Program-made: the position numbers and the translations under genes | NCBI GenBank assembly: GCA_963931925.1 | Contig: OZ007582.1 | Coordinates: forward strand, 23,459,224 to 23,523,223 | Reading direction: 5' to 3' | DNA from: Onchidella celtica | Lineage: Eukaryota; Mollusca; Gastropoda; Systellommatophora; Onchidiidae | Length of the DNA: 64,000 nucleotides | Notes under the pieces: generated by a model | Databases searched by the model: none | What the model was told of the DNA's origin: nothing | The model's input: only the letters and a program-made list of their open reading frames with translations | Shown here: piece by piece, positions 1 to 61,998 of the stretch | Layout of the letters: each line of letters opens with the position of its first letter | How positions within the stretch are numbered: position 1 is the first letter of the stretch

Positions 1-510
<510 letters not shown>

Positions 511-8223: not shown

Positions 8224-8555
8224 CTAGAAAATCTTGATAACAAGAAGAGCCAAGATCAGGCTTGTCAACGAATAAAAGAGTTTAGGGGAATGATTTTTGG
8301 AACCATCACGTAGTTCACGATACGCTTTGTGAACATCAAAATCACACAAAATACCAGCATCACGAAGTGAATTCTCAGCTATGTTTTCAAGCTGGTGAAG
8401 TTCCTGTGATGACAAGCCTTCATTGTGCAAATCATTAACTCGCAAGGCACATTTCAAATATTCCTGAGCCACGTCGCACACGCGGTCTGGACGCTGAGAA
8501 ACTTGGGATCTCAAAACATCGATGCATTCACCAACATCCTTGGCATCATCGAATT
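8224..8555 (-). CDS. Gene 1 exon 3, type B domain and hydrophobic C-tail
   Basis: Acceptor TCTCCCCCCAG, entered in phase 1, then 110 codons to TAG at 8224. The domain has spacing C-x15-C-x8-C-x34-C, with GECIDVL, QEYLKC and GILCDFDVHK motifs. After RELRDG the chain ends in a hydrophobic tail (LFYSLTSLILALLVIKIF). This resembles a GPI-attachment signal or a single C-terminal membrane segment; the small polar run DGSKNHS before it could hold an attachment site. A possible N-glycosylation sequon (NSL) lies in the domain. The tail makes this the natural last exon. Confidence 0.8.
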
Positions 8556-11500
8556 CTGGGGGGAGAAAACACAAAATAAGTTGCTTGAGATATTTAGCTT
8601 TGACTTACTAACAATCATCCATTTGTACTGCAATGAATGTCTGGATTTCCTCGCATGTCGAAATAATCAGACAAGACATTTAGGTCGAAATCCTCTTTGC
8701 ATGCTTAAATAAGTCAGTTGTAGTTGTCCAATATCCTAGCTGGGATCAGAAAGCTTGAGCATATGTATCTGATATTACAACTGCAAAGGTCAGTCGAAGA
8801 AAAAAAAAAGAGAGTGGTGGGAACTGTTTGTATTTGGAAAGTCATCAAAACATTATTCGTTTTATTCATTTATTTGCTAGTTGTCAGGAGAGGAAAAAAA
8901 TCAGAGAATTATTGTTATTATTTTTTTTGGTGTGTGAATGTAATTCAAAGCATTACTTATTTATTTCTCGTATTTACTCGCGTTCTTTTATGGAGCTTTT
9001 TTTCATGGTCAGTGAATCAGAATGTCTTTGGGTCTATCTATTGATTGTTCGTCAATTAACTGATTGGTTGGTGGCTGTGGTGAACACTTATTTTTTTTAA
9101 AACCACAACACGGCTGTAGGCTCGCAACCAGGCATGGGACAAATTTCATCCATTTTCAATTCTTTCGTAATTGATTGCATAGTTTGCTTTTTGTTTCTTT
9201 GCTTCCCTGTTCTTACTTTTGAATCTTTGGTCTTTGAAAAATAGCAATTTCTCTTTTTCTCCTTTGCAGGCAAATAATAAGAACAGCAGTAATTTTAGGG
9301 GTAAAAAAGGGACATTATGCAAACATTATGTATATAATTAATATTTACATTGGGTTTATGCTATTGCTGTTGTTGTGTTTGTTCTTGATGTTCTTCTTGT
9401 CCAAACATGAAGTTGTCTTGAAACAATCAATACAATTTGGCCGAAAGACCTTTCCAACAAAGTTTGGAATCATGCCTTCAGAGAACGAGATCGTATCTTC
9501 TGTGATGGATTGTTTTCTGCCAATACGTGTCAATCAGGGGGTAAAAGTCTAAGGAGCAGCACTAAAAATTGACCCAAACCAAGATAATGAAGAAACAGTG
9601 GCAAGTGCAAAGTAACCGTTATCGTGCCGAGGCAGCGTTAAATCCAAAAATCAGGCTCAAACTAGGGAGCAGCTTATGTTAAACATTTAAGTCTTCAATG
9701 ATAATGCTGATCATTCCTGACAAACAAAAACCTGAAAAGTCTTCCGTTGATTATGTAAATTTTAGTGTCAGCCTACTGACATTTGAAATTCCAAATAACG
9801 GTACGAAATAAAATGGTACTCAGAGCATTATCAAAGTTACCGTTGTTATTATTAATAGGATGATGTCATTGCAGGATATCAAAAACGGTGTCAATGTCAC
9901 TAAGAACGATTGATTCATCTGGAAATGTTGGTTTAGTGGGAAAAAAGGTTTCTCAGGTTCTGCCTTGAAAATTGTTATTGGAAATAAAGCATAATAATAT
10001 ATATGCCTAACATTTAATACGAATCGGAGATAACTGGGTTTTATCACTGGGCTAGGAATTACATTTCCTACAATTTTGAAATTTGTCAAATTGTGTATTA
10101 GAAAATGACATTTAATATGAATAACTTTAATTTCACGAACCTTCTACTGCACTTCATAAACCATAATCACATTTACTAAGATATGAGTAGCTGGAAAAGC
10201 AACAGTTGGGCCATATCTTATAAGAGATTAAAATGCATAAAAAAATCGTCAGATGGTGAGATAGAAGAGCGGCAGGTAACAAAATAAAGCACAAAGAGTT
10301 CATGCTTAGTGAGGTATAAAGTAAGGCCGATGTGCAGATAATTGGGGATGTGAGTGGAATGTAGGGAATCTGGCAGATCTGCATAATATAGGGAAGTAAA
10401 GAAGAAAAGAAGAGAGTGTATCTTTAGGTGGGTGGGTGGATATGAAGATAGGTAGGTAGGTAGATAGGTAGGTAGATAGGTAGGTAGGTAGGTAGGTAGG
10501 TATTTCGGTAGGTTGGTAGGTAGGTAGGTACGTAGTAGGTAGGATACACATTATTTATGTCACAAGGTAGGAAGTTAAAGCACTGTTGCCATAGGCTGTT
10601 CAAGAATAAAATCTACATTTGCATGAGGTGTAATTCAAACTATAAATAGACAAACGTACCCTGAGGTCTATTAACCGGGCGCTGGGTTGTCACCTCCTGA
10701 AGAACTTCGTCTATCGCCGTTTGAACGTTCAAGTCACAAGATTCCCCAGCTTCCAAGAGTGCTGCGTCCAAATCACTCTGTACCTGATGAACCGGAATGT
10801 TAACGGCTCCAACTGTCCTCTCGTCTATTCTGATCAGACATTTCAAGTACTCCTCAAAAATATCACATGGTCTGCCATTCCCGGCTGACACACCGTTTAT
10901 CAGGTCATTATAACACTGGCCAAAAGTCTGGGCCTGAACTTCACTCGTGCCTGAAGAAGAAAACAATGGAAAACTGTTCTCAAGCGTATCATGGAAAGAG
11001 CTGCGGGTTTTCAAACATATTACCATCATCTTGTCAACAAAAAAAAAGTGATGAAAAGTGAAATTGCTCAGATTGCTCTTGTGTTTTATTGTGATGGAGG
11101 GCATTGTGATGTAAGTATTGTCATGATGTCAATCTTGTTGATGCTATGTTTTTGTGAAATAGTGATGATGCTATTGTTTCATGATTTATATTGCTTTTTC
11201 AGCCCTGGGTTTAAAATCTCTTCTGAAATCCTTGCACTGACTGCCAGTTCCACCCTGTACTTTGTATAAAGTGGCCACATCATGTCTCAGATGTATAATA
11301 ACGCACCAACCTACGTTATCGAATTATTGAATCTTTATGCAACATCTAGCCAGCCACCATCTTCAACAGATATAACAAATTAGAAGTTCTTATTATGTCT
11401 TCCAGTTCGCTCGATGAACGAAGACTTTTCTGTTGGCGGCCCGAAAACCTCGAATTCGCTGTCTCAAAAACCTAGGAGCTATTCTAAACACTGAGACTTT

Positions 11501-12357
11501 GAAGAAACACCTGAAAACAGAAATTTGTGATTGACAGAATGCAACCATAGCAAGCTGTTTCTGACCCTTGTCACAAGTTTAGTATGTTCTTTATATAGTT
11601 GATTTGAATGCTGATTGAAGTATGACTGTAAAACGCGTAGAGCTTGCATTTGAAGGGCTGTTGTGTTATTAAAAAATTATTATTATCATTATTGAAATTG
11701 TTATAATATTGTTATTGGTGCCGAGTCTAGCCGGGAAGCAGTTGAAATTCCCTGAGCACATTCGTCGAAAGAGGCGCACTTTCAGCAATTTTGAATACCT
11801 AAATTCACTTGTTTGATAAACTTCGAGTTGTCGTTTTGGCATGGCCTTGAAAGGACAATAGATCTACTCTGCGCCTCGTCCAGAAGATGAGACTATTCGG
11901 CCCCTCACCCCGAGTAGGACTAAAGAAAGAACCGGTTGTAATTATTACATACATTTTCATATTGCTTCGTTTAGTTTTCATTTTACGCTTCCAAATGTAT
12001 AAAGATAACCACAGATGTTTTTATTATGTTTTGTTTTTAAGTACAACAACAATGGTCGAGCCTACCATAATGTAAAACTTTAAAAAAAAATTGTGTTTCA
12101 ATTTTGGATACAAAACAATAATGATATACTTTCTTTAAACTGAATCTTCCTTGTGTTTTGATATTGATACAAATTAGAAAAACGTAAAACAAATAAAAGA
12201 TTGTTCTGTAAGTGTCCTGACGCTTTTTTTATGTGCTGCCCTCACCCCACTTCTATTTCAAGACTTGCTTCTACCCCTAATATTTTCTATAGCAGAACTT
12301 TTACTCACCAGCTATGAGAATCAACACAGTAAAGATGTTAATCCAGCGGGACCACAT
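8224..12357 (-). CDS. Gene 1: secreted two-domain four-cysteine protein (3 exons)
   Basis: Predicted CDS joins 12357-12309, 10950-10660 and 8555-8224 on the minus strand: 672 nt, 223 aa plus stop, open across both junctions. Order: signal peptide, type A domain, type B domain, hydrophobic C-terminal tail. Both introns are GT-AG and phase 1. The first exon has the same length and phase, and a related peptide, as exon 1 of gene 2, so the two genes are tandem paralogues. The product should enter the secretory pathway and may stay membrane-attached through its tail. I do not recognise the family; function is unknown. Splice sites come from motifs and frame agreement only, without transcript data. 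Confidence 0.8.
8556..10659 (-). other. Gene 1 intron 2
   Basis: A 2104-nt GT-AG intron. Non-coding, with a TAGG-type microsatellite at 10431-10545; nothing else supported. Confidence 0.75.
10431..10545. repeat. (TAGG)n microsatellite in intron 2 of gene 1
   Basis: GGTG and TAGG tetranucleotide repeats with GATA and TACG variants. Confidence 0.93.
10660..10950 (-). CDS. Gene 1 exon 2, type A four-cysteine domain
   Basis: A 291-nt symmetrical (phase 1-1) exon, acceptor TTCTTCTTCAG and donor GTACGT. It carries the mature N-terminus and one domain with cysteines spaced C-x15-C-x8-C-x33-C. Key motifs are GQCYNDL at the first Cys, EEYLKC around the third and GESCDLNVQ at the fourth, followed by a helix ending VLQE. 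The end of the exon (TTQRPVNRPQG) is Thr/Pro/Arg-rich and probably an inter-domain linker. Predicted all-helical by residue pattern; function unknown. Confidence 0.8.
10951..12308 (-). other. Gene 1 intron 1
   Basis: A 1358-nt GT-AG, phase-1 intron. No linker microexon like those of gene 2 was found in it. Confidence 0.75.
12309..12357 (-). CDS. Gene 1 exon 1, signal peptide
   Basis: Forty-nine nt encode MWSRWINIFTVLILIA plus the first base of a Gly codon, then the donor GTGAGT. The hydrophobic core INIFTVLILIA continues in exon 2 into a likely signal-peptidase site after SEVQA. The matching exon of gene 2 encodes ISIFTVLIILV in the same place and is also exactly 49 nt with a phase-1 donor, which fixes this ATG as the start. 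Confidence 0.82.
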
Positions 12358-13367: not shown

Positions 13368-13375
13368 ATAAGAAA

Positions 13376-14936: not shown

Positions 14937-15255
14937 ATAAGAAAGTAGAACTAACATCTGTTTTATTCATAAAATGACCGGCGTATTTTGTAAAAATCAT
15001 AATTAAACACTAGAATCCCGAAGAACGAAAACGGAAAAAAAAAGCCAATTGCAGGAAGTTAAAAAAAAAATCGGAATACCAACCTTGCTAATCCGAAAAT
15101 TGGAATCGTGCCCGTTTTTCAAGATAAATCGGAACGTTTCCCCAACCACCCACCCTGCCACTGACTGGCCCGTCACTTTCTACCCTCTCTACATGGTATT
15201 TCCCAAGACACAGGCGTTCCTGTGTTCTAACTTTAGCCCTGAGACACAGGTTTAA

Positions 15256-17729: not shown

Positions 17730-17868
17730 ATACACACCTATACAAGCAAGACAAAATATACCCTGCATGTGCATCTTTTTTCTACACTAATACAAAGCAA
17801 AATATATATCTATACACACAAAGTAAAAAATATATATCTATACACACACAGACTAAAATATATATCTA

Positions 17869-18264
17869 CTAGATGACCGACCGGGCATTGCCCGGAATAA
17901 ACAATCATGTGCTCCCCCCCCCCTCTCTCTCTCTCTCATATAATAAAAGTAATAAACTACAGTCTTGCTTCAGAACTCATGCGCACCAGAACACTACGCA
18001 CCAAACTGAACGCTTGATATGGTTACCTTTTATGACATGCACGGTACTATATATTAGGAAACAAACATGCAAAAATACAGATGTTACATAGCAATAAAAT
18101 TTTTTATTTTTGTAAAAATACACGCTTGAAGTAAACCACTTAATAATAGCCACCATCTTCCTAATCTCAATTGCCACTTTCCTGCCAAATTTAAGGCCTG
18201 AAGAGTGTATAGTTTGGTCAGTGACTCATGCCAAAGGTTGCAAGTTTCTGAAATATATAATAGA
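17869..18264 (-). mobile_element. Helitron-like element, downstream copy of a dimer
   Basis: 396 bp. On the minus strand it starts TCTATTATATA directly after the CTAG of the neighbouring copy. It ends with the hairpin CCGGGCAATGCCCGG, eight bases, then CTAG, followed by T. TC start, a 3' hairpin and a CTRR end in an A/T target are the hallmarks of Helitrons. Non-coding, so non-autonomous. Confidence 0.8.
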
Positions 18265-18663
18265 CTAGATGACCTACCGGGCATTGCCCGGAATAAACAA
18301 TCGTGTGCTCCCCCCCCCCTCTCTGTCTCTCTCTCTCATATAATAAAAGTAATAAACTACAGTCTTGCTTCAGAACTCATGCGTACCAGAACACTACCCA
18401 CCAAACTGAACGCTTGATACGGTTACTTTTTATGACATGCACGGTACTATTATATTAGGAAACAAACATGCACAAATACAGATGTTACATAGCAATAAAC
18501 ATTATTTTTTAAAAATACACGCTTGAAGTAAACCACCTTTAATTATAGCCACCATCTTCCTAATCTCAATTGCCACTTTCCTGCCAAATTTAAGGCCTGA
18601 AGAGTGTATAGTTTGGTCAGTTACTCATGCCAAAGGTTGCAAGTTACTGAACTATATAATAGA
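18265..18663 (-). mobile_element. Helitron-like element, upstream copy of a dimer
   Basis: 399 bp, close to the adjacent copy over its whole length. The minus-strand 5' end is A followed by TCTATTATATAG (a short stem-loop), and the 3' end is the same hairpin plus CTAG. The junction to the next copy is CTAG followed immediately by TC, with no host base between them. Confidence 0.8.
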
Positions 18664-19877: not shown

Positions 19878-21062
19878 GGCCAACCTTCTTGCTCTGTTTC
19901 TTTATTATGATCAGGTTGGTTTCCATCTGCTGTACGTCCTCTGTGCAAAGTGCCACATCGTCCGCATTTCTCAGGTCTTTCAGACACTCTCCATTATTCT
20001 ATGTTGACACCAATTTCTAGGCTCACTACTGTAAGTAGTTTTTCAATCGCTTCTGTAAATAATTTGGGCGAAATAGGGACTCCCTGTCTCACTCCTCTTT
20101 CCATGGCAAACTTTTCTGACACATGGTTATCAGTATGGATTCTGGCTGAGGCTTCTTGATATATATAATTTGCAATATTTTTATGTTAAACTTCGTTGAT
20201 ATTGATTTTTCGTAGGGCCTCAAAAATTGATAAATTTTCAATGGAATCGAAGGCTTTTTCATAATCGATAAAAGCCCGTCTTTCTTAAAGCCATTTCTAT
20301 CACTTCCTCTTCGAAAGGTGGTACTTGATCATTTTCTTGCACAGTGTTTTGTAAAAATCTGAGCAGACAGATTTCTTCTCTGTGGCCGCTTCACTTGTCC
20401 TTGTGAACATGCTTGTGATTTTCTTTCGATTGTCTTGTTTGTATATTTCTTTTCATCACTTGCCGCCTCCAATTATTCCCTTATTAATTTCTTTTCTTAT
20501 TCTTCTGTCTCAGTCTCTTCATATTTTCTTCATCGTCTTGTTCAGTTCAGGATATTCAATTTTTTCTTTGTCTTTCATTCTTTTTTTGTGTGTAGTTTTC
20601 CTCTTTATGTCTAGTTCTTCTAACATTTTGTCATCCTTTGATTTTTCTTTCTCTGGGCTTTCTTTCGGGTCTTGTATTTTCTTTATTTCTTCCGTTTCAA
20701 TTTTGTTCAGTGTCTCGATAGAGGCTACATCTTCCTCCAGAGATTCAAATCTGTTTGTCAGTTCCAGCTGAAATATGGTCTTATGTATTTTCAGTTTTTT
20801 CATATTTATTTTGAGAGGTTTTTGTCACTTTATTCTTTTCAATCTCACAAGCTTTCTGTTCATTCTTATATTTGGTTCTAATCATACGATGATCACTCCC
20901 ATTGTCGACTGCTGTAATCATCTCACAGTTTCTTATGATGTTCCTGTCCGAGGTAAGGATGTAGTCCAGCTAGTTTCTGTGTTCCCCGTTTGGGCTTTCC
21001 CAGGTCCAGTATTTCTTTTTCGCCTTTTTTGAAGAAGGTGTTTTCATACCCCATTGTGGCCT
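19878..21062 (-). pseudogene. Decayed endonuclease-reverse transcriptase of a non-LTR element
   Basis: Read on the minus strand from about 21060 downward. The end of an APE-type endonuclease is visible (KPKRGTQK, DYILTSDRN, then GSDHRMIR near 20890). A Lys/Glu-rich connector follows (ESLEEDVASIE, EYPELNKTMKK). Reverse transcriptase motifs come last: FIDYEKAFDS near 20260, GVRQGVPISPKLF near 20075 and the catalytic ADDV at 19954-19965. Stops and frameshifts interrupt the frame repeatedly and the RT thumb is missing, so it is dead. RTE/BovB-like affinity is likely but unproved. Confidence 0.8.
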
Positions 21063-24000: not shown

Positions 24001-26195
24001 ATGAGATCTAATAATGAAAATACGAACATTTAAGATTGTTCCGAACAAATTGACATTCTTTTTTTTAAAACTTTTATTCTTTTTTACATTTTGTTGATTT
24101 GCCCTTGTACAAAGTTTGGGCAAGATAGTCCCCTTAGAATGACAGTGTTCTAACTCCCTTCCATCAACTGTTTAGAAATCCAGGATTGAAGTTTCATGTG
24201 ATCATAGCTTTAAAAGCACAGAATGTTTGTTCTTTTTAGTAATATTTACAAATTACACACCGAATCTGCTTGATACTTTGACACAAAATGGAGAAGGACT
24301 GGAGATGTAGTGTGTAGTGTGTAACTCAGTTCAGCCAAAATGTGGAGTTAGAATCTTGTCATTCTAATAGGACGAGATGACTGTCTCAGTTATTTTTACA
24401 TGAAAAAGTGATATTTCCTGCATGAAAAACCAGTCCATTTTTCACCAAATACAGCGGTTCCACGCATCAGAGACATCCGGATGGTAGTTTTTGAGGTTGG
24501 CATTGTTGTCCAAACTGCTATTAGTGTAGTTGCTGTAGCAGCTGCTGTTTCTCTTTAAAATAAATCTCACGTAAACGTGATGAATAGTGATTTTTGAATT
24601 CCAGTGAAACTAATACTGATATTAGTTATTATAAGCAGTCATAGATCGGTAAAGTATACCAAAATTCTTGCGAGATAGATTGTTCCCTAATGGTGGGCTA
24701 AGCTGCTTTCAATTGAAAAAAATGTACATAACTCTGAATATCAAATGAATATCAGACATCATATGTTGGGTATATTAATAAAATCTGACAGAGGCTGTTG
24801 GTTAGGAAAGAACCAGATAAATCAGATTAGATTATGTCATATTCCCCAGCATTTCCGGGGTACTTTCCTGGCTGCGATTATGTGTAATTCTCACTTCAAT
24901 CTGGCTGGGGAACCATCAATTGGAATCCAAACCTTCAAAAAGTTATCTTGCCAAGTTAAAAATTGGGAATAAGATTTATAACACGTTGATGATTAAATCT
25001 ATTATTACAATGTGTATTTTTCAACTCGCGAACACGGGAATATGTTTCCAATGTATGATATACGGAAATGTGCAAAACTGCGCGAAGACATAATAAGAAC
25101 AACAGCAGTCTTCCCATATTGGCCAGAATAAAAGCTCCAGCTAGAACATTCTATCATGTTGATCACTAGGCTAACTTTATGTATTACCATCTCCTCAGCA
25201 GGGTGACGGGGGGAGGGGGGGGGGCATATTTGCGATGAACGATGTGGAAACGTGCAAAAATGATGGAATGCACAAGAATAATAACTGATGTTGTTAACGG
25301 CCGAAAAAAAAAAAGCTATAGAACTTTCTTTCGTGTTGATCACAGAGTTAATTATCACCATCTCACAAGGGCAGAGAAAAGGTTTAACATTCTAGAGCAG
25401 AGAGAACGATGAGAACAGGCAAAGTGCCACATAAGTAAAATGGAACAGGTTTAATCCCGGAGCAGCTGCGTTGCCAGGTGCCTTTGTGACATCACCCGTC
25501 CCCGGTCCCCTAGATACGGCTAGATATGAAAGAGAGGGAAAATCAGATAGTTTAACATTAATTTTATAACTTATAACTTAACTTACTAAATAAAAATAGC
25601 CCAACGTTGGACAGGCATATAAAACACAATTATATAACGCACCTACTGTCGTGTGTGGTTCATTCTTACAGTAACAATTTATTATGTGTCTTGTATGTGT
25701 ATGCATATTATGTGTAGCGGTTGTCTTCTCTCTCTCTCTCTCTCTCTTGTAATTATTTTGATTTGTCATTAATAATGTTGTATTAATATTTTGTTGTTAA
25801 TAAAAATGACAGCGTGAAACTGACGAGAAAATATAGTTTCCTACGAGGTGCAACCTCATCAGTACACCATTGTTTGCACCGAGAATTCTGCTGGGAGAGA
25901 TGATGTCTTGGACTCATGCATTTGTGAATAATATTGGTTTCCTAAACAATTTCTCAACTTTTCATACCACATTAATTCAAAGCAAGTTTTTCGTATTCCT
26001 AGATCCTATTTCAATCATTTTTTTTACTGCCATATCACAATTATTTGTTAAGAGGAGTACTCATTCTTTCCCACAGCTAAAGAATTAAACTAACCTAGAC
26101 CCTCTGCGCTCTCTCTCCCTACGTCATGTCGGCGTCACCAATTGAAGCTCGCTCAGGCCATATCTATGTTGGTTGAGCCGTCCATTAGGCTAGTG
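21063..26195. other. Non-coding spacer between gene 2 and the non-LTR relic
   Basis: Mostly AT-rich and without supported genes. Positions 21060-21400 are a GC-richer patch unlike its surroundings, possibly another repeat. 23685-23760 resembles the arm of the foldback repeat at 31.9 kb. 25640-25935 holds one copy of a block repeated in gene 2. Homopolymer and CT tracts are scattered throughout. A last small exon of gene 2 could hide here. Confidence 0.45.
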
Positions 26196-26515
26196 TTAAT
26201 TATATGTACTAAAGCTTACCAGTGGGAATGGCAATTTCAAAGACTTCAAAACATTCAAAAGTTCAATCTGACCTCTCTCCAGTTCCCGAATTATCAGCTG
26301 TGCATTCCAATTACATCTGAGACCATCTCCACGTAGTTCCTCTACCAAGTCGTCATGTAGTTTCTGAATATCTTGAAATGACTGTGGGTGTTGGTGCATA
26401 TTGTATACTCGATATAGACACTTTAGATACTGTCTTGCTAGCCCGCAGTTCAGGTCTCCTTTCTGAGAGACCAAAGTGTCCAGACAACCACCAGGTGTCG
26501 CGGCGGCATTGAATC
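26196..26515 (-). CDS. Gene 2 exon 7, type B domain 2 and C-terminus
   Basis: Acceptor TTTTTCCCCCAG, then 105 codons to TAA at 26196. Motifs GGCLDTL, RQYLKC and GLRCNWNAQ. Spacing is C-x12-C-x8-C-x34-C, three residues shorter in the first loop than all other copies. The tail after RELERG (about 25 residues) is not a clear membrane anchor, unlike gene 1. Two donor-like sites lie inside: GTCAGA in the homologous position of exon 4's donor (phase 1) and a strong GTAAGC at 26219 (phase 0). The true last exon may therefore lie further downstream. Confidence 0.7.
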
Positions 26516-29500
26516 CTGGGGGAAAAAATCGCACATACATACACGGTTAGTTGTAGAAATTTGATAAAACACACAACTTCATGTACAGCGGGACTTTTCT
26601 TTCAAGTAATGTGAAAAACCCTGACCTAAAGTAAGGCAGTATTGTTATAACACACTAGCAATGGCCTCAGGATGCTGGATGGAATTGGATAGTATATGTA
26701 TATACACAATATGCACTATCATACTTACTTCTTCTTTTGTTACCTAAAACAGAAAAAAAGGAAAAGAAAACAACAACAACAACAGTCTGACTACCCTGGT
26801 GATAAAATATATGTGTCTACCAGGATGCTGTTGTATTCAGTTTATTATGTGCAAGTGTTAAACGATTTGTTTTTCATACAGATAAATATCATATAATTTA
26901 TTTATTTGCTAGCCAAGGTCCGGGCGTTCCCCATGGTAAAATGTTTTTGTTGATTTCAGTTTTGGGTGATTGTAACAGATCTGTTTCACTTTGCCCGTCA
27001 TTTTTGGTTTATTTTGTAATTGTGTTTATCTGTTTGCTTTTAGGTAAGTCTTAGTGTATTACTGTTGCGCGCCAATGCTTACGCGCCCCCCCCCCCAACC
27101 TCTGCTTGGTCAGCAGTGGAGGCGAAGATGGTCGTGAAAGTGCAGTAATGTGCCCAGTGGGCAGTTTTTTGTTTAGATAACTGCTCTGTTCTACGAACGA
27201 CAATAGACAAAATGCACCACTTCAGACGTAAGGGATCAGCACAAGAAGTCAAGTTTCGCCTCTAACCTTCTATTATCCACCCCAACCCACGTTAGCGATT
27301 AAGCGATTAAGAACAAAAGTGAGAGAGGGCAGGGGGCGTTGTGGGGTGGAATATCATGTAGCACTCTGTAATAGAAAGTAGGCCCATTGACATTATTACA
27401 CAGCACTGTGCGCCAATTGTCTAGTTCTATGAACGTTCAAGGACTAAGGCTATGGAAAAGACCACATTCTATTTTCAGTCGCTAACGGATTATTTACGGG
27501 ATTCTGGTTGGCTATGCTAATGATCACTGATAAGGGTTGGGTTTGTGTGTGTGGGTCCCGAGTTCATGCATGGAAAAGAAAGAAATGCTGCGGTAGAAAC
27601 ATTTTTAACTTCCAAGCAAGCCATGTAGAGAAAAATAGTGAGTTGTGTTTTCTGTCCCCCCCCCCCCCCCCCTCCCCCAAACAATTAAAAACATTTCTTG
27701 CGTATTCAAATCAACCGGTAGTAAATAAGGAGGTCATTTGTCACGCGTCCATGGAAAAGAAGTGATCGTGGGACGAAAGATGAAATTAATGACACAATGC
27801 AACATTTCAGTTGACAAAAAAGAAAAAAGGAAAACGTATTTGACAGTAAAGCGATTAGCCCTAATTGTTTCTTATTTTTATGCAAAATTTCATCGACATG
27901 CGTTGTCAAAGAGTTTGTAGGCTTGACTAAAGTTTGTATAGGCTGGCGCGAGTTTTCTTTTATTATACTAGACGATTTCTTTGTCGTCAGCAGCAACAAC
28001 GATAGGCAGCTGGTAAGAAACGAAGATACCTGGTCACAGGCATCAGGTAGGAATGTACTTGATATTAGAGAAGGAATGGAGGGAAGACATTAAATAGTCA
28101 GTTTGACTGGCCAAAGGAGAAAAAGATTCGCTGACTGACTGACATATTGTTACTATGGAGATAAGTAAAGCCAGATTAATGTGGTAACTGACTGGTTGGG
28201 TGAGCAGCTACTATTCCTTGGTGTAAGTATAGTGGATGTGCCAGCAATCATGCTAACAGAAGTCTAGATTTTGTTAATTGTTTTTTTTTTTTATGTCTTA
28301 ATATGTAAAAAAAAAACATGTAATCAATTTTTTATAGTGGCAATTTTATTTATCAGAATATGTGTGAGTTCTTTTGTATGTGTGGTTGTATTTCTTAAAT
28401 TTCTCTCTCTCTCTCTATCATTATCTGTCTGTGTGTCTCTCTTTCTGTCATTCTCTCATTTTGTGTGTGTCTCTCTCTCTAGCTGAATCGTTCTCTCTCT
28501 CGGCATGCGTATATGTATATCTGTCTATCTGAATGGCTCTCTCTGTGTCTTCCTTGCCCTCTCTTTGTCTCTATCTCTCTCCATTTACATCTCTCTCTCT
28601 TTCTTTCTCCCTCTCTCTGTTTCCCTCTCTTCCCCCCTTTTGTCTCTCTTCTTTCTGTGTCTCTGTCTGTCTGTCTCTCCTCCCTAATCCATATCACCAT
28701 CCAGAACTGATTTTGTTTACCTGGAGGGGTACTCTCTATTTTCCAGACAATTCCACTTCTCTGTTCCTGAAGAAGTTCTTCTTTTATCTTCTGAACACTG
28801 ATGCTGCAGAACAGGCCAAGCTCGTTTAGTTGTGAATTAACTGCAAATTGTGTTGCACGGACACGCAGGTCGTCCTCTCCAAAGTCGGCAATAAGCAGTC
28901 TGATGACACATTTCCAGTTTTCTCTTTCTGATCTGCAAGATGGACCGCCGTCTCTTCTCCGGTTGCTCCTCAAATTGTTGAGGCAGCGACCCCGACTTAT
29001 AACTTCAACTGTGGAACCTTTAAAGTGATATACTAAGTGTCAGCCTAAGCTCTCACAAAACAATTTGATTGGCCGATTATTTGGATGTGACATCACGACA
29101 CTAAGTGTCACCAGAGAGTATAGATGTATAGAGAGATCTCACTGCCGCCAAATCGCGAAACCAAGTCGCTGCGGTAAACAAGAAATCGAAAAATTGAAAT
29201 AGGCTGCCTTCACCAAAGAGAGTATATATATCTGTTTATTGTGGTCTGTTCATATTAATTTTTTTTTTTTAGGCTGATTGAAACTATTTAGAGCCGTTTG
29301 TAAGTTCTTACGCCCTATGGAAATGCACCAACGGGTATTGTTTGTCACAGAGACCTACTTTCCACTCCATGCTAACAATGGTTTCGCAGAGCCTCCCGTG
29401 TCTCGCAGTGCCAATCGACCAATAGTGAAACCACTCGACATATCTATACTCTCTGGTGTCACCGAGACTTCGCCCACCAGCCAATTACTTTATTTCTCAC

Positions 29501-30591
29501 TGAGAATCGTGAACCCATCATTCAGCCGGTAAACAGCTGGATCTCATTACAACTCAATGTCGTGGCGTCACTACCCAACTAATCGGCAGATTAAAATCGT
29601 TTAGTCCCTGCTGGGCCTTAAAGTTCCTAGCACATAACCAAAAATTATGTGTCGACCGTTTTAATACTTAAAACTATTGTATTATGTGAGAGGTAGTTTT
29701 TTTTCCCGTTCTTGTACATCTGGTGCTCTGGCATTAACCATAATGTTTTGTCATTTTTATTCTTGCTGATCCGGATTATAATAATTATGATCGTGATGGA
29801 AATGCCTAAACAAGGAAAAGTATTAACGTGATCAGGCAGAACCGGAGACAATATTATACGATTTTCAGAAAAGATGAAAGGTGTGTGAAAAGATTTGATC
29901 ACGTGCTAATGTATAACTCATAAAATACTTACACAATACAATGATTAACGCAGCTGTGTTTCATTTTCACCACAAACATGTTTTACAAAAATCACAAAAT
30001 AAATTTAGATAAACAGTGATTTCCACAGGTGATTGATTTTTGGTACAGGATCCAGATGTTGTATTATAATTTATAATTTACCTGGTGGTGCAGGAGTCGT
30101 TACAGGTTGATCACCTGAAAGAGATATAAGATGGAGATGGGTTGGGTTGGGTTAGTTAATGGCGGGTAAATTGAATAGTGTCAAATGTTTAAGATATGTT
30201 TAGACGCCTGTGACGCCCACCGCTGTTACCAAGAACGTGCAGTTTAAATTAATTTTAATTAATGAACTTTGCCATGTGAAATTACGTTTAAATGGAGCTG
30301 TGGTGATTTTTTCATTCCCTTTAGAAAAACATGAGAGTCATTTTTGCTAAATATGCTCTGACATAAATGTGTTTGACGGACTAACTTGTGAATGAAAACG
30401 ATGGCCACTGTTACCCTTTAAAAAAAGTTTACATCATATTATTCAACATCTTTAATCTGATAGTTTATGTCTTGCATTTTTTATGATTGCAGTTTTATTT
30501 ATTAGAGCATGTTTGAATGCTTTTGACATGATGTAATTGTCAGACTCTCTCTCTCTCTCTGTCTCTCCATTTCTCTCTCTTTTTCTCTTCC

Positions 30592-30626
<35 letters not shown>

Positions 30627-30629
30627 GCC

Positions 30630-30672
<43 letters not shown>

Positions 30673-33600
30673 TTCTGATGAAATCACCAACGCTCCCTGT
30701 ACTTTCAGGGCAATGGCTCATGAATCGAAGAACTAGAATATACTGATGGAATGGCAATAATTTCATCAATTCTGTCCTACAACGTCCAGAGTAAAGATAC
30801 TTAACCCAGAACGCAAACAAGTACTGTTAACTAAATTCATACTTCCATTCTCACCTTTTTGCAAGTCTCGTAACATCTCGTGCACTTCCAAATCACAGAT
30901 GAGACCGTCTTTCCGTAGATCAGCCTCTATCTCATTCTCTAATTGCTGAATACCCTGATTTGACAACTGTGATTTATGCAGTTCAAGGACTCGGAATCTA
31001 CATTTCGTGAACTGCTTGGCTATGTTACAGTTCGAGTCTCCAGCCTGTTCCACTTCAACCTCTAGAGTATCCAAACAGCCACCAATTGTAGTGGCGTTGT
31101 CGAAACCTGTCAATAGAATCGCACACAGACTCGATGAAATATGAAAGGAGACGAAAGCGGAAGCACCATGCACTCTAAAAGGCGATGTGAAGGTTTCTGA
31201 CGTCTTCTTGACTATAGGCAAGATGAGACTAACGTCATTCGGCAGAACAGCCGAAAACCAAAAGAAACTCAGACCACTGTATCTGAGCTCTGAGGATGGC
31301 TGAATTTTTGTGAATGTCTTGTTTTATGGAAGAATATTCAGCTCAGTTGGCAAAACACCACATATTACATTATACTAGCTAACCTGCCAAGAGTGTCTTA
31401 CAGGTTTTAAATCAACTAATTGGTCAGCCTACCAATCTGATACCAAATAACACCAATCCCATCCCATCCTATCTTACATCCACCAGGGTTACCAGATTGA
31501 AATTTTAAGTTCAAGCTTACCAATACCAAAAGACAGAAATAGGCAAACAAATTCCAGTACAGTTTTCACACTAATATCACATGAAAAGCTCCAGAACCAA
31601 TTTAATGTCCTCCTCCCCACTAGAATGACTGGGACATTTGGCTTAAATCTTGCCAGTTGTGGATTAAAAAAAAAAAACAACACAAAATTTCTGGAGATGC
31701 AATGAAAGACTTTGCAACACTTACTTGAAAAATTCTCCCTCGAATCTCATATCATCAAGAATATTCAGCTGCATTTCTTGTCTTAGCTTTAACGGAAGAT
31801 ACATGAGAAAATATCCTTTGAACTGCAACATTGATGACTGGGATTATTAGGTAAATGAAGACAAAAGTAGCCAGCTATGTAAATGCTTCATGGCGAATTG
31901 ACGAAATGTTATAAAAACCATAGAAAAAGTGTGGGGTCGCATCAAGGCTTGAAGCAAAAACAAAATGTGGCAAAAGGAAAACAGTTGTATGTAGCAAAGC
32001 CTCGCATAAAAAATAATACCAAAATGATAGAGTAAAACGCGAAGAGAAGACCTAACTTGTAATACTTCGAGGCTGAACACTTGGGCGGATGTGCTGCGCT
32101 CCGAAAATTCAAGTCAGGACTCGCAGTTGACTATTCGTACTGATTTAATATTCTTCAGTTTTTGTTATTGTTCAGTTGTTTCATCTGTTCAATTATCCAA
32201 TTTTGTTTTGTTTTTTCCTGAAGCAGGTTTACAACCCAAAGCTCAATTTGTCTTCCTTTTTTCTTTGCGTTTTATTGTATTGTTTCGGTATTATTTCCTA
32301 TGCGACACTTTGCTACATAATCCTATCTTTTTGCCATGTTTTGACTTTGTTTCATGGCGAAGTAAATCAACCCAGAACCACAGAGTGTGCATGGGGTTCT
32401 ATCGTGGGTGAAACTCTGTCGAAAACGGTTGCAGTTTAAAAAAAAAAAAGAACAAACAATGAACCATAGAATCCAGTGCCAACTGCACCCTGACCTTGCA
32501 GGTAGGCCCTTTTTTTTTTTGACAATTAGCGAAAGAAATCTTGGCACTTCTACATGCAACTGATAAAAAAATATTTCATCGAAAGTAAATATTTTAGAAA
32601 AAGGGTGCTCTGTAATTTTAGTGCAGGTCATTTTAGTACGTCAGGAAAAAAAGCCAGGAGAAAAGCCAAAAAGCCAATCAATTTTTTAAAGCCAACAAAA
32701 TCTCTAAAAAGCCAAATTTCTGGCATTTGGCTCTAAAAAGGGCCAATTTGCTAACCTTGTTAGAAACCAATGGATCTCACGATTCTATGCGTAGCTTATG
32801 AATGAGTGAACCCACAAGTTGTTCTTTTTTTTTTTTTTTGCCTGTGTCAGTCTCGATATCATTAAGTTTGGCTAGGGAACTTTCTGATGACCAGGGCCGA
32901 GATGAAAGACAGACTTATTTTTGATGTACGAAACCATGTGTAACGGTCAGTTGTATTAAATTGTTCGTATTCAGCCAGGCCTAAATGGCAAAGTGACAGA
33001 ATTGTAAATCTTGGAGGTAAATGCAAAAATGGACGTTCCAATTGACATGTAAATTACACAAAGTATATGATAGTGTACGATATATGACAATAATTTCTTG
33101 AATACTTATTTATTCAGTGTCAACGATCGGATGATCACTGGATAATGAAAAAGGGCTTTAATAAATAAGTTACAAAATTAAGACATTGGGTAGGAATAAA
33201 GAATACAATAGTTTTGTGGGACAAAAAATCCATAAGAGATATTTTATTGTACTTAGACCGGTTGTTCAATGGGTATGCAGTAAAAAATGAATGCCGTCTG
33301 ACATAACACACCAAACAGTAGTAAGCTGGTTAGGAGGGAGATACATTAAGATTAGGGAGATGGCTGAGTCGGTGAATAGTAAGGTGAGTAGATGCACAAA
33401 TAGTTCAGTATATAGGTGAGAGTCTGCGTAACTTTTCAAGTATAGAATCAGGCTGTCGAATAGGTATGTAGATTAGATAATCATGTTCCTGCGTAAATGA
33501 CTAGATGACAGTCATAACGATTTGCCTTTAAAAGGAACTTGATCCGACGGGACAAATCAACATCTGGAGGAATAGAGATCTTTACCTGGAGGGGATATGT

Positions 33601-36600
33601 TTACTGTGTCCCACACAATGCCGTCCCTCTGTTCCTGAAGAATTTCATTTATCACCGCCCGAGCGTTGATGTCACAGGGCTCACCGAGTAGTGCAGTTTC
33701 TGAGTTCAAAATAGTCTGTAACCTTCTAGCAGAGATGCTGTTCGCCCCCTCCTTGGCAATGTACAATCTGGCCTGACATTTCCAATATTCCCTGTCTGAC
33801 CTACAGGATGGACCGTTGTCGTTTGCTTCGTTGATTTCTTGCTCGTCATAACAGCGGCCAGCACTGATGACTTTAACTCTTGTGCCTTGGTAATAATACA
33901 GTATGAGAGTTAAGTTTGTTAGCATTTGATTGCTATCGTGTGTGGTACATTCTCACAGTACATGATTTATTGTGTGTCTTACATGTATGCATAATATGTG
34001 TAGCGGTTGTCTTTTCTCTTTCTGTCTTTCTCTTGCAATTATTTTGAATTGCCATTAATAATGTTGGATTAATATTTTGTTAATAAAAATGGCCATGTAA
34101 AAACAGATCAGAGAACATAATTGACACTAGGTGCAAACTCAAAAGGTGTTCCTGGACACTGAAGGGAAACATTTTTACAGTCATTACCTGGCGGTTGACG
34201 AGTTGAGGTTTGTCCAAGACTTATATGCCCACCTGTGAAAGATGAAAAATTATGAGGGGTTTATTAGATGTTTACTGCTGAGTAAATTTGACGTAAAATT
34301 GGCACAAAAAGATAGGTTATCATATCCGTCGGGAAACGTAGCACTGGATCATTCACAAAATTCAGCGAGTTATATTAGCTATAGACAGTCAGAATAGTAT
34401 ACAATTGTTTGCATAGAGAATTCTGCTGGAAGGGATGGCGTCTTCACCTCAGGTATTTGTGAACATTTTCTCTCTTGTAACTATTTTGATTGGTCATTAT
34501 AATGTTATATTAATATTTTGTTATTAATAAAAATGACCACGTGAAAACAGATAAGAGAACATAGTTTACCACGAGGTGCAAACTCTACAGGTATTTTTTG
34601 ACATTAGAGGGAAATAGTTTTACAGATCGGGGGCAAAATCAGCGACACAATCTAAGAAGAAAAAAAATTCTGCATGCCTGCACTCTAGTGCACTCTAGTA
34701 TATTTATGATTTGCACCGAGAATTCTGCTCCCGGCGATGACGTTTTGGACTCATGCATTTGTGAACATGCATTCGTGAGTAAAGTATCGGAGGCGAAATC
34801 AGCTACACAAGTAACAACAACAACAACACAAATTACTTGTCCATCATCACAGGCCCCGTGATCTAAAAATGAACCCTCCGCAGGACGAAAGGAAGGCCTC
34901 TCACTTTCTAAATTTTACGGGAATCCGAGCTGTATGTATAGCGGTAATGTAGGTCTTACTGAAAACATCTGGTGCAAATCACGTTCTATATTATTAGAAC
35001 CACATGGATGGTGTCAACAAGTGGATTTAGCTCTTTACTAAGGATATGGTTCGACTGCATTTGAGAGGGGCTAAATCACACTCGCAAACACACACAAGCA
35101 AAATACTGATTCAACGCGAGTAGTAACAGTATGAGTCAGGCCTGCAGGGCCACAACCATTTATTTACGATTAAAAAAAAAAAGAATATAAAAACAAGTTA
35201 TAGGTTTGTGAAATCAATAGCAGCTGCAAATCAAGGATATGATATATATTTAAATCCAACTGCTTACACAGATAACTCCCCTTCACGTAATTTAAGTAGA
35301 TAACTGTTATAAGTTCAGTTCATCAGTAAGTTGTATGTCTCACTGTCCAAGGACCTAAACTCTAGGGTAATAATGGCAATTTAATCTCAATATGAAGGAG
35401 ATATTTATATCTCAAGGTCCTGCACTTAACTAGTTCCCCAAAAAATACACAATGCAACTAAGCTCTGCGAATAGATACCAGTGAATTCCATTCACACAAA
35501 TTTCATTCCAAACGTTCTATTATGGAAAGTCATTCGTCTCAGGTGGCAGCTCTTGAAGGCACACGTCCTGTGACTCAGGTAGTACTCCTGGTGGACACAT
35601 CTAGATCTAGTTGGTTATCACACTCAACTAAGAAACGTACCATTGTTCCTGGTCGGTTAGCAACCGGGAAAATCCAATACTTGCATGAACAAGTTGTACT
35701 GAGACATGAGCTCTCTTTCTCTGACTTAGCTCCTTCGTCGAGTACAGTTCAAGGCATGATTTGTCTACAGACTTTTCTGCTCTAGTGGAAAAGATCTAAA
35801 AGCACTGAGATCACCTCATGATTAGGATACCGCCATCATATGTGTCTGAATAGTCCCCAACTGACAAGCTCTTTTATATGGGGTCACTGCCCAGGCGAAA
35901 TTCTTAAGCCGCCGCGTTACTCACTGACCTGATCGGTCAGTTTACCTAACCCCTGCAAAGCGGCAACCAATGCTAAGGACGTTACCAGAAATATCTTTTG
36001 AATAACATTAAATCTGCCAATTTCATTGGTCAGATACTGCAGACTGCTGCTCTAACCCCTACTGTTTCAGACGGGGTCTAATGCCTAGACATGATGCTTC
36101 TATCAACAACAATAAAACACACTTTCTCACCCTCTCTATCTTAGTCACTTGCTGCACAACTGTTTCGTAGTAATAATATTAGCTCTCCCCCACCCTGCAG
36201 TTCCCTTTCCAAAACTCTGGTTCACGAGGTCAGCTGAGTACACGACGTCTTGCTTGAAACCAACAACTTGCTTGACCTCTCGTTAGAATTTTAGGTCTAT
36301 TCTAAATCATGACAGATGGAGTCACACGGCGAATTGGTCCTGGTTAGAGTCATTCACAATGAGGATTAACTTAAAGCTCTTTTGTGGTTTTTATTTCTTG
36401 TTTCTCTACCTTCTGTTTTTTAATAAACTAATTTTTCTTGTGCCCTCAGTGTTAGTGTAGAGATCACATTCGAAAGCTGCTAATATCACTGGGAATGCTT
36501 TCTAAGACATCAGAAATCTTATCTCTGAAGACATGGCATTTAACTAGATAAAATGTTTAATACTGATACCCTGAAAAATCCGAATGGGCTTCAGCCCAGA

Positions 36601-39019
36601 TCAATGTTCCCTCTAATTTTCACTAATTAATGAGTGCAGATATTCTGTTCTGTGCATTTCTTTCCCTTGTGACTGTACTACGTGCGCACCGAATGCTTGT
36701 GCATGTATATTATAACCTTTGAAATTGTTTCATTATAATTTGTGACAGTTTATATCTCAAGAAACAAGTGTCAATGTAAGTGTTAACAGAAACAGTAAGC
36801 TAAGAGATTATTTTCAAATTTCAATAAGAATAATTATTAATTACGATGTCAGTTTAGGTTAATGTCCTAGTGTGTACATTAATTCCTTTTGTTCGTCGGT
36901 TGCAAATGTACAATGTGCGAGCGCGCATACACGCAGCCCAGTAGAAACACTAGTAAAGATTAAGGTGATTCCACTATCAGAGGTCAATTAAGGTGAAGCC
37001 CACAGACTCCATCTGGTTCAAGCCAATCACGATCTATGAAGGCAAAATCTTATAATTTGTCACAAATCCCAGACTGGGAGATGTAATAGTTATAACAAGA
37101 CAACAATCACGAACGAACAAGTATAACACTTAACAGAACAACCCATCAGACTCACACATTTATTATACATAAAGATAAAGATAAAAGTGCAATTACATAC
37201 ATTATATTATTGAATTTAACTACCGTCCAACGGCCTTATTCCCACATGCACTCTTCCTCGGGTCCACAACCCGGTAGTTACTTTCTAAAGACACTTCGGC
37301 CTCAGCCCCGCCTCTCAGGGTCTTAATAGCACATTAATATTTCACTGGCACCGCAGTCTCTCAATAGCACCTTCCTATTGCCATAACACATTAGCATTCC
37401 AATAGCACATCAACATGGCAATAGCACATTAGCATTTCAATAGCCCATCAACATGGCAATAGCACATTAGCATTTCAATAGCCCATCAACATGGCAATAG
37501 CACATTAGCATTTCAATAGCACATCAACATGGCAATAGCACATTAGCATTTCAATAGCACACTCACAATCATCTATACGTCCCTGTCTGTGGCCAGACTG
37601 CCACGACTCATGTGCCTCTACTGTCCTGCACCGACAGCTTCACTCCTGGCCTATGTGTGGCCTCCGGCCCTATGCTGGCCTATCCCCTGGGCTCACCGTA
37701 GGCGGCGCTCTTCGGCCCGACCTCGGCACCTACAAGAATAACATTACATTGGTATAATACCATACCACTTCTATTCACTTCACCCCTCCTTACATCTCAT
37801 GAAGCGTACACACAATAGTTCACATTTCACTCACCAAACATCTTACGGTAACACATCTCCACCGTAGTACACAATACTCCCTCTCGCTACAAATCCATGA
37901 ACTCAACTTACATCTATCGCTCATGGCGCACATTGCTATATACAGTATCAAGGACTTCCACATTCCTCACATATACTTATTTACATCATGGTCATAGACG
38001 AATATTATACATCAATCATAATTATCAATCATCGTTCCACCTACCAGTCATCACTGGAAAAACACTACTCCCAAGTCTTCCGACTGCTCTCCTTATGTTC
38101 GCCCTCTGGGGCTTTCTCCTGCGTCCGTTCTCTCGGACGTCTTAGTGTGCAGTGATAGTAATACAGCGCTCTCGCCTCATTCAGACCCCCACCACTCACA
38201 ACATGCACGCTTTTCATTATTCCGTGGTCCGTGGGTTAACTTTATTCTAACCCTCTTCTCGTAACTACTGATCCTCGCTCACTCGCTCGTGACATAATTT
38301 ATAATACAATATATAGATGTCGATCTTAAGGAAGGCGCATACTGCGATGAGATTATACCCCTATCAGCATGGTAACTCTGTGTTTGGAGGAATCAAAAAA
38401 ATTTGGAATTCATTTTTTACCTGCCTTAAAATGAGACCTGTATGAGAAGCTGTGAATCTTATATATGTATAAGAGTTGTACTCCCAACATTGTACCAAAG
38501 ATACTGAATGTATAAGTGTACAGTACGGCTGTCGCGTGCCACCTAGCGACGAAAGCACAGAGGGAAGTCATCGGCAATAGCGTATCTTACAAGGCAAATA
38601 TCTAGAGAAAAAAATGTTATCCCCTTACGCTTGCCCTGTTGTGACTTACTTTGTAATTATAACTTCAGTTGCGTCAGAAAAATTGGCAGATTGTTTTTTT
38701 TTTTTTTTTTAGCCGCCGTAGCACTGTAACAGGATCACTTCATTAATTTATTACTATGCCAAGCACTCTTTTCATGCAACGCCCAAGATCAGCGCCCTAT
38801 CGCGTATTATCTAACTCTGTTGTCTCCGCTTGTACTGCGTTCTCCTCTGAATTTCCCTTTGCATTCTGTTTCTGAATACTTCACAGTAGTTAACATTTAG
38901 TCTTACAGCATATAGACTTCTGTTCTCATAGTCATAGCAAAGTAAATAGGCCTAATTAATGTCAACTTACCAACCAAAATAATCAATACGGTGAATATAG
39001 AGATATAGTAGGAAGACAT
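26196..39019 (-). CDS. Gene 2: secreted four-domain four-cysteine protein (7 exons)
   Basis: Predicted CDS joins 39019-38971, 34232-34188, 33885-33586, 31106-30855, 30114-30082, 29017-28721 and 26515-26196 on the minus strand: 1296 nt, 431 aa plus stop. Every junction is phase 1 and the frame stays open across all six. Order: signal peptide, linker, domain A, domain B, linker, domain A, domain B. This looks like gene 1 with its A-B unit doubled, each unit preceded by a Pro/Thr-rich linker. The protein should be secreted; function unknown. The 3' end is the least certain part. Intron 1 holds two solo LTRs. Confidence 0.78.
26516..28720 (-). other. Gene 2 intron 6
   Basis: 2205 nt. Non-coding, with poly-C near 27085 and 27658 and a CT-rich tract 28400-28680 just downstream of exon 6. 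Confidence 0.7.
28400..28685. repeat. CT-rich low-complexity tract
   Basis: Runs of CTCT, CTGT and CTTT within intron 6 of gene 2, ending about 35 bp from exon 6. Confidence 0.9.
28721..29017 (-). CDS. Gene 2 exon 6, type A domain 2
   Basis: 297 nt, phase 1-1, donor GTAAAC. Motifs GRCLNNL, GPSCRSERENWKC and GLFCSISVQK, with spacing C-x15-C-x8-C-x33-C. The start (STVEVISRGRC) parallels exon 3 (TRVKVISAGRC), which fixes the acceptor at 29018 although CACTTTAAAG is a poor one. The exon closes with STPP. Confidence 0.78.
29018..30081 (-). other. Gene 2 intron 5
   Basis: 1064 nt, containing an inverted-repeat element at 29109-29458 and otherwise AT-rich non-coding sequence. Confidence 0.65.
29109..29458. 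repeat. Inverted-repeat (MITE-like) element in intron 5 of gene 2
   Basis: CACCAGAGAGTATAGAT at 29109-29125 is matched by its exact complement at 29442-29458. Inner parts of the arms also pair (gcgaaacca). A related right arm (gcctcccgtgtc.tgcagtg) recurs near 57635-57660. No clear target duplication was seen. Confidence 0.6.
30082..30114 (-). CDS. Gene 2 exon 5, Pro/Thr linker microexon
   Basis: 33 nt between TCTTTCAG and GTAAAT, phase 1-1, encoding DQPVTTPAPP after a split Gly. It has the composition expected of a flexible, possibly O-glycosylated hinge between two domain pairs. Strong flanking splice signals and exact frame agreement support it. Confidence 0.7.
30115..30854 (-). other. 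Gene 2 intron 4
   Basis: 740 nt, with a CT/CTGT microsatellite at 30543-30675; otherwise nothing. Confidence 0.65.
30543..30675. repeat. (CTGT)n and (CT)n microsatellite
   Basis: About 20 CTGT units flanked by CT runs. Confidence 0.95.
30855..31106 (-). CDS. Gene 2 exon 4, type B domain 1
   Basis: 252 nt, phase 1-1, acceptor TATTGACAG, donor GTGAGA. Motifs are GGCLDTL, KQFTKC and GLICDLEVHE, with spacing C-x15-C-x8-C-x34-C. A DNATT N-glycosylation sequon lies at the start. Closest in the window to the type B exons at 8.4 and 26.4 kb (shared QxLE, DLR.DGL.C pattern). Confidence 0.83.
31107..33585 (-). other. Gene 2 intron 3
   Basis: 2479 nt. Contains a foldback repeat at 31915-32400, A/T homopolymers and an AAGCCAA-rich patch near 32650-32740. 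Confidence 0.65.
31915..32400. repeat. Foldback repeat
   Basis: Left arm (about 31920-32060; ttgtatgtagcaaagcctcgc, aataatacc, taaaacgc) is complemented by the right arm (about 32240-32400), with mismatches. The same arm sequence, also partly inverted, appears in both copies of the 2-kb end repeat (near 1200-1330 and 62695-62820). A shorter match (gtggggtcg.a.caaggcttgaa) is at 23701. Confidence 0.65.
33586..33885 (-). CDS. Gene 2 exon 3, type A domain 1
   Basis: 300 nt, phase 1-1, donor GTAAAG. Spacing C-x15-C-x8-C-x33-C with AGRCYDEQ, REYWKC and GEPCDINAR motifs, then a helix NEILQEQRDG and a short Thr/Pro tail ending SPP. Very close in layout to exon 6, with which it shares GPSCRS, WKC and LQEQR.SGIVW-like stretches. 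The acceptor (TATTATTACCAAG) has a modest pyrimidine tract; a later AG exists but would remove aligned residues. Confidence 0.8.
33886..34187 (-). other. Gene 2 intron 2, with repeated intronic block
   Basis: 302 nt. It contains a copy of a block also found at 25640-25935 and 34385-34620: tgtgtagcggttgtctt, a CT run, then ttaataaaaatg. Confidence 0.65.
34188..34232 (-). CDS. Gene 2 exon 2, linker microexon
   Basis: 45 nt between TTTCACAG and GTAATG, phase 1-1. It encodes GHISLGQTSTRQPP after the split Gly codon: the signal-peptide end, then a Thr/Arg/Pro linker. In-frame joining to both neighbours, and the analogous 33-nt linker exon later in the gene, support it. Confidence 0.65.
34385..34790. 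repeat. Repeated intronic block copies
   Basis: gagaattctgct followed by a variable stretch and (catgc)atttgtgaa occurs at about 34412 and 34717, and also at 25883 downstream of exon 7. The attached aatattttgtt.ttaataaaaatg.c segment occurs at about 25785, 34070 and 34515. The blocks are in the same orientation. Confidence 0.7.
35012..36314 (-). mobile_element. Solo LTR in intron 1 of gene 2
   Basis: Plus-strand ends TGTCAACAAG and ATCATGACA (1303 bp), flanked by the 5-bp duplication GATGG at 35007-35011 and 36315-36319. The CAGGCCTGCAGGGCCAC block near the left end is the reverse of that in the 17-kb LTR, with AATAAA on the minus strand just upstream. Sense is therefore minus, the same as gene 2. 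Confidence 0.87.
37058..38294. mobile_element. Solo LTR in intron 1 of gene 2 (second family)
   Basis: Starts TGTCACAAATCCC and ends CTCGTGACA (1237 bp), flanked by the 5-bp duplication TAATT at 37053-37057 and 38295-38299. It lacks the GGCCCTGCAGGCCTG block of the other LTRs, so it is probably another family. A 38-bp minisatellite lies inside. Confidence 0.83.
37385..37565. repeat. 38-bp minisatellite inside a solo LTR
   Basis: About 4.5 units of a 38-bp repeat built from caatagcacattagcatttc followed by aatagc(c/a)catcaacatgg. Confidence 0.92.
38971..39019 (-). CDS. Gene 2 exon 1, signal peptide
   Basis: Encodes MSSYYISIFTVLIILV plus one base, then donor GTAAGT. Same length, phase and core (ISIFTVLI) as gene 1 exon 1. 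Cleavage is likely after HISLG, in the next exon. An upstream in-frame ATG exists but would bury the signal core, so this ATG is preferred. A TTTTAAATAG TATA-like motif lies on the minus strand near 39205; weak. Confidence 0.8.
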
Positions 39020-42284: not shown

Positions 42285-42297
42285 TATCCCCCACCCC
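42285..42297 (-). other. Polypurine tract
   Basis: Sense-strand GGGGTGGGGGATA directly abuts the 3' LTR, the usual place for the plus-strand primer. Confidence 0.8.

Positions 42298-61435: not shown

Positions 61436-61998
<563 letters not shown>

Follow-up and report, generated by a model that had tools for sequence, protein, structure and literature searches.

Paired four-cysteine domains in a clustered gene family of the mollusc Onchidella celtica: candidate recognition proteins

Analysis of a 64,000-nucleotide stretch of the genome of the gastropod Onchidella celtica (contig OZ007582.1, here C16, positions 23459224-23523223; hereafter the window) leads us to propose, with modest confidence, that two genes on its minus strand belong to a molluscan family which has expanded in tandem and whose members, built from an undescribed domain, act in extracellular recognition. 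The two gene models contain six exons that encode one four-cysteine domain apiece. An earlier note, made from the letters of the sequence, had drawn attention to these exons; its observation is confirmed, and was understated.

Two gene models and their six domains

All six domain exons were found at the place and on the strand that the earlier note had given, and both signal-peptide exons by which it had divided them into two genes (SIFTVLI, 38971-39019; NIFTVLI, 12309-12357) are present in the sequence, which supports that division. Gene 1 is predicted to encode 405 amino acids in the order signal peptide-A1-B1-A2-B2, and gene 2 to encode 223 amino acids in the order signal peptide-A3-B3-tail, A and B being two subtypes of the domain. 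In each model a signal-peptide exon contributes the first 49 coding bases (we recognised signal peptides by eye, in genes 1 and 2 and in two relatives). The claim that the frame stays open across the predicted introns stands, but these number six over both models and not eight; all six have GT/AG ends and are in phase 1. The features are as follows, GPI denoting glycosylphosphatidylinositol.

38971..39019, minus strand: gene 1 exon 1, coding part, signal peptide MSSYYISIFTVLIILV(G), with phase-1 donor GTAAGT
33586..33885, minus strand: gene 1 exon 2, domain A1, C-x15-C-x8-C-x33-C
30855..31106, minus strand: gene 1 exon 3, domain B1, spacing 15/8/34
28721..29017, minus strand: gene 1 exon 4, domain A2
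26196..26515, minus strand: gene 1 exon 5, domain B2, spacing 12/8/34, then stop codon, without GPI-type tail
12309..12357, minus strand: gene 2 exon 1, coding part, signal peptide MWSRWINIFTVLILIA(G)
10660..10950, minus strand: gene 2 exon 2, domain A3
8224..8555, minus strand: gene 2 exon 3, domain B3, C-terminal tail and stop codon
8227..8301, minus strand: GPI-type C-terminal signal by sequence rule (GS, KNHSPK, 18 mostly hydrophobic residues to stop)

The spacings and signature that had been reported for the domain were recovered in every copy. There are four cysteines in each, with gaps of 15/8/33 in A1, A2 and A3, 15/8/34 in B1 and B3, and 12/8/34 in B2; C2-x8-C3 and the (E/Q)xxKC motif around C3 are kept in 6/6. 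Leave-one-out profiles, in which five copies were used to find the sixth, recovered every copy (E 3.1e-22 to 2e-16), and among 2135 open reading frames (ORFs) of at least 20 amino acids in the window no further domain exon rose above chance, the next best match having an E value of 0.36 or worse. A feature absent from the earlier note is that the copies alternate as subtypes A and B along both genes: identity is 31-45% between A copies, 36-46% between B copies and 18-31% between A and B.

The same features extend to relatives elsewhere in the genome. From fetched loci we assembled a non-redundant set of 49 domain exons (23 of subtype A and 26 of subtype B), covering the C16 clusters at 6.4 Mb and 23.4-23.9 Mb; the groups at 15.3 Mb and on contig C9 were left out, and matches under about 70 profile positions and repeats of one place were dropped. 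Four cysteines are found in 47 of these exons and five in the other two. The phase-1 acceptor AG is in place in 46 of the 49 by a script in which offsets for A exons were set by hand, and in two more by eye; the one exon that lacks it at the phase-1 place is a B exon at C16:6504500.

An alternative to two genes is that the gene 1 exons splice onward to A3-B3, the second signal-peptide exon being skipped, so that the product would be a six-domain GPI-anchored protein and an inner promoter would serve a short form. Since all introns are in phase 1, exon skipping keeps the frame; moreover, one relative has the order A-B-A-B (from C16:23594573) followed by a tailed B exon at 23604060, and no A exon was found between them (99 bases between the fetched loci being unread). 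We nonetheless consider this arrangement unlikely, because in the window B2 continues to a stop codon, which follows 25 residues beyond RELER, and the expected donor is altered: where GTGAGA stands after B1, the corresponding place after B2 reads GTCAGA. A further GTAAGC donor is in phase 0 and would break the frame.

Membrane tethers and the wider array

The earlier note had supposed that the family is secreted. This fits gene 1, which has no tail, but gene 2 and some relatives carry a GPI-type signal, and part of the family should therefore be tethered to the cell surface. The C-terminus of gene 2, a tail of B3 that the note had not remarked upon, reads GS-KNHSPK-LFYSLTSLILALLVIKIF-stop; it has a small-residue site, a polar spacer and a hydrophobic end with no cytoplasmic tail, which is the layout of GPI signals. 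On the strength of this sequence the gene 2 product is very probably GPI-anchored.

Applying the same sequence rule, and by eye, we called 13 GPI-type tails in the fetched DNA, that of gene 2 included: 12 belong to the 26 B exons and one lies next to a B fragment that was too short to be included. The linker between B domain and tail in the 12 exons measures 2, 2, 2, 4, 6, 12, 25, 25, 80, 105, 109 and 136 residues, that of gene 2 in the window being 2 residues. In the six exons with linkers of at least 25 residues, proline, serine, threonine and glutamine make up 57-79% of the linker, and the four longest linkers contain recurring units such as QPPTVSR.

Evidence that the gene pair is part of something larger came from a search of the organism's own genome (1.14 Gb, 43 contigs) with gene 2 as query, the counts being lower bounds. 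There are at least 109 family matches at E<=1 and at least 98 at E<=1e-3, the window's own included; five of the matches at E<=1e-3 are tail-only pieces. The distribution is strongly clustered – 101 of the 109 matches lie on C16, near 6.4, 15.3, 23.4-24.0 and 26.2-27.0 Mb, and the other eight on C9, near 49.3 Mb. The window itself is bounded by a direct repeat.

8..2514, no strand assigned: left copy of a direct 2.5 kb repeat at which a tandem duplication unit of about 61.5 kb has its edge
61498..64000, no strand assigned: right copy of the same 2.5 kb direct repeat, 94% identical to the left copy

Because its two ends share this repeat at 94% identity, the window corresponds to about one tandem unit, and the gene pair is, judged from the sequence, one unit of a larger array. 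Comparison with a neighbouring unit gave 94-98% identity over window positions 24105-33954 (gene 1 without its first exon) and 87-89% over 4914-11704 (gene 2). This unequal divergence of the gene 1 and gene 2 parts suggests a mosaic, the pattern that gene conversion would leave.

A second kind of array occurs near C16:26.43-26.45 Mb, where 12 matches follow in succession at a spacing of exactly 2417 bases. In the sole stretch of it that was read (C16:26433500-26436600) two units share an identical overlap of 684 bases; judged by eye, each of them comprises a complete domain exon together with a partial domain that has three cysteines. This is possibly a long repeat protein or an array under homogenisation.

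Selection on both subtypes

By codon models, both subtypes are under diversifying selection while their cysteines stay fixed, gene conversion having been only partly controlled for. The analysis used exons of the gene 2 type, with gene 1-type and the most divergent exons left out: of the 23 A exons it covered 14, over 95 codons, and of the 26 B exons 16, over 82 codons. Codon site models were fitted with our own code, for which the one-ratio log-likelihoods (-1728.06 and -1948.48) equal those of IQ-TREE. In A, twice the log-likelihood difference (2dlnL) was 17.06 for M1a-M2a, 19.56 for M7-M8 and 16.97 for M8a-M8, with omega (w) 2.66 at 20% of sites; the corresponding values in B were 16.32, 21.73 and 17.70, with w 2.30 at 28% of sites. 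When the alignments were divided into four halves with trees of their own, M8a-M8 gave 2dlnL of 11.43, 11.53, 6.81 and 8.45, all at p<0.005 (about 0.0004, 0.0003, 0.005 and 0.002). Data simulated under M1a without recombination (60 sets per subtype) reached M1a-M2a maxima of 6.44 and 6.62, and the observed value was attained by none of the 60.

Under M8 the sites with a posterior of at least 0.8 are, by alignment column, 9, 13, 17, 27, 63, 67, 69 and 77 in A, and 15, 16, 22, 23, 25, 37, 40, 45, 49, 51, 58, 65, 66, 69 and 75 in B. B sites 58, 62 and 65, spaced by 3-4 residues, fall in the third helix of the predicted model described below, placed there as if on one face of the helix.

The possibility that these ratios reflect lost constraint in relaxed or decaying duplicates must be weighed. 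The overall ratio of nonsynonymous to synonymous substitution (dN/dS) is 0.82-0.86, most pairs lie below 1, and some copies look damaged, all of which would fit decay. It would not lead us to expect that M8 beats M8a, the model whose additional class is set to 1, for A and B alike and for the four halves, nor that cysteines, open frames and acceptors should be retained in nearly all 49 exons. We regard decay as a very unlikely explanation.

Fold, probable role and alternatives

The earlier note did not recognise the domain and had proposed that one copy be modelled. That the domain is an unrecognised one is supported: there was no match in Pfam, NCBIfam, the sequences of the Protein Data Bank (PDB) or a protein collection, and no clear fold match. 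AlphaFold returned confident four-helix models for both A1 (predicted local distance difference test, pLDDT, 83.7; predicted template modelling score, pTM, 0.75) and B1 (pLDDT 87.1, pTM 0.75), neither with a clear solved relative. Each domain is thus predicted to be a small four-helix bundle, and the positions of the cysteines on the predicted helices lead us to infer two disulfides per domain, C1-C3 and C2-C4. The top TM-score among the 15 Foldseek rows for B1 was PDB 4ui1 chain D (TMq 0.49, TMt 0.56), the N-terminal domain of repulsive guidance molecule C (RGM-C). RGM-C is a GPI-anchored protein and, like this family, has a disulfide-linked extracellular helical domain; the likeness is kept as a lead only. 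For A1, haloacid dehalogenase, methyltransferase and transposase entries that led the best 50 of 146 Foldseek rows were dropped as chance-level. A viral fold library gave no match (best E 0.59).

Searches by sequence were negative. In Pfam the gene models and domain pairs reached a best E of 0.047, below the curated cut-off, and when 26 domains were searched singly no family matched more than one of them (best E 0.018); the same 26 found no match in NCBIfam, a library built for bacterial and archaeal proteins (best E 0.012). PDB chains gave no match by sequence either (best E 0.11 with the gene 2 protein, 0.41 with a 26-sequence profile). In the protein collection 550, 2948 and 8000 (of at least 8000) candidates were scored, and none fell under E 1e-3, 1 and 0.1 respectively; the collection may contain few mollusc proteins, and so a restricted distribution of the family does not follow from the null result there. 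Prokaryote genomes yielded 117 pattern matches, none confirmed as a homologue. In open-licence literature nothing was recognisable as the family by title or start of abstract, although it may be in print under other wording. Twin CX9C (CHCH) proteins, which are defined by two CX9C motifs, were ruled out, the gaps in the window copies being 15 or 12, 8, and 33 or 34. The GFR-alpha/GDNF receptor, which is GPI-anchored and built of repeated helical domains rich in cysteine, differs in having more cysteines per domain, and its family was not among the Pfam results.

Small disulfide-linked helical domains are often ligand carriers, and it is conceivable that the four-helix domain binds a lipid or odour molecule, with fast change tuning its specificity. 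The insect carrier THP12 does appear among the best 50 of 146 Foldseek rows for A1, yet at rank 23 with an E value of 3.3. The sand-fly protein PpSP15 has the odorant-binding-like pattern CX10CX3CX46CX15CX8C, and is like this family in being small and cysteine-rich, with a signal peptide and a C-x15-C-x8-C stretch formed by its last three cysteines (PMC7092997). This likeness is a lead only, because PpSP15 has six cysteines, in another order, against four here. The insect odorant-binding six-cysteine pattern does not describe the family (47 of 49 domains have four cysteines and the other two have five), no odorant-binding profile was present in the Pfam lists at E<=10, and GPI-type tails and stalks are better suited to surface display. 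A carrier function seems to us distinctly unlikely.

We return to recognition, a role that the sequence places slightly on the probable side. The family has expanded in tandem and contains sites whose dN/dS is above 1, two traits of diversifying recognition families. The basic head, as the sequence shows, is one A and one B four-cysteine domain behind a signal peptide. Gene 2 would present such a head on the outer membrane through a GPI anchor, while gene 1, with its order A-B-A-B and no tail, would release a soluble double head of the same kind; in some tailed relatives a stalk of very different length stands between head and GPI-type signal. The variable positions may touch a partner that is changing in its turn, be it a pathogen or a partner in gametes or body fluids, and duplication within the array together with gene conversion could keep yielding variants. 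More tentatively, the whole may constitute an undescribed variable recognition system of molluscs, in which paired A-B four-helix heads, displayed by GPI anchors on variable stalks and accompanied by soluble double heads, are diversified by duplication, conversion and selection, the 2417-base branch at C16:26.42-26.46 Mb included.

Immunity and reproduction both fit this picture. Bivalve C1q-domain proteins are a parallel in tandem expansion: they are secreted recognition molecules expanded by tandem duplication, with a domain different from ours (PMC6835236). We know of no GPI-type tail in them. The reproductive alternative is that diversification stems from sperm-egg or sperm-female conflict and not from pathogens. 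Abalone acrosomal proteins are reported to combine tandem duplication with positive selection, and the sperm proteins lysin and sp18 share with the present family their molluscan origin, tandem array and positive selection (PMC9022041). Our family is, besides, predicted to be helical and disulfide-linked, with sites under diversifying selection. Its domain is nevertheless unlike the abalone proteins: the available text mentions one disulfide pair for sp18 and no repeated four-cysteine domain, and the term GPI is absent from the paper's main text (PMC9022041). The egg-lysin family was not among our Pfam results, the Pfam name or accession that holds it being unchecked. Gamete or seminal recognition is a possibility, if a doubtful one.

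Several observations weigh against a recognition family as we propose it. No homologue of known function was found in the searches made. GPI-type tails are missing from 14 of the 26 B exons – seven of the gene 1 type and seven others – and in five of the latter seven a stalk-like linker lacks the tail in that frame and continues into other sequence; the GPI and signal-peptide calls, moreover, rest on eye and not on a predictor. Among pairs with synonymous divergence (dS) below 0.8, dN/dS is above 1 in just 14 of 114 for A and 17 of 123 for B, with medians of 0.69 and 0.60. Site tests can be inflated by gene conversion, an effect that the halves reduce; the control is partial, and the simulations were free of recombination. 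Some copies also look damaged, such as the gene 1 copy near C16:23431.7 kb, because its B2 relative ends early in frame.

Other features of the window and the genome may be recorded here. An LTR (long terminal repeat) retrotransposon of Ty3/gypsy type lies at 41107-49833 on the minus strand; its direct LTRs of 1172 bases are 98.6% identical, its ORFs resemble, by eye, gag with a zinc knuckle, reverse transcriptase and integrase, and it is apparently young. An ORF resembling a fragment of LINE (long interspersed nuclear element) reverse transcriptase, again by eye, occupies 58174-58938 on the minus strand, with a smaller one at 19994-20185, and a 400-base unit is present in two copies with 93% matches at 17852-18663. 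No RNA families or tRNAs were found in the window. The molluscan haemocyanin beta-sandwich family has 33 matches in the organism's own genome against none in 14 control genomes, a result that supports a molluscan source.

What is gained is an unannotated domain, together with a clustered multigene family missed by the standard libraries searched. The family bears the marks of a recognition system – a surface tether, a variable stalk, selected sites and an array – and the unusually fast change in parts of the proteins is what is expected of molecules that recognise a changing partner. To our knowledge invertebrates have no antibodies, which makes new diversified surface families direct candidates for recognition in immunity or between gametes. 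With the selected sites given above, a recognition role can be tested.

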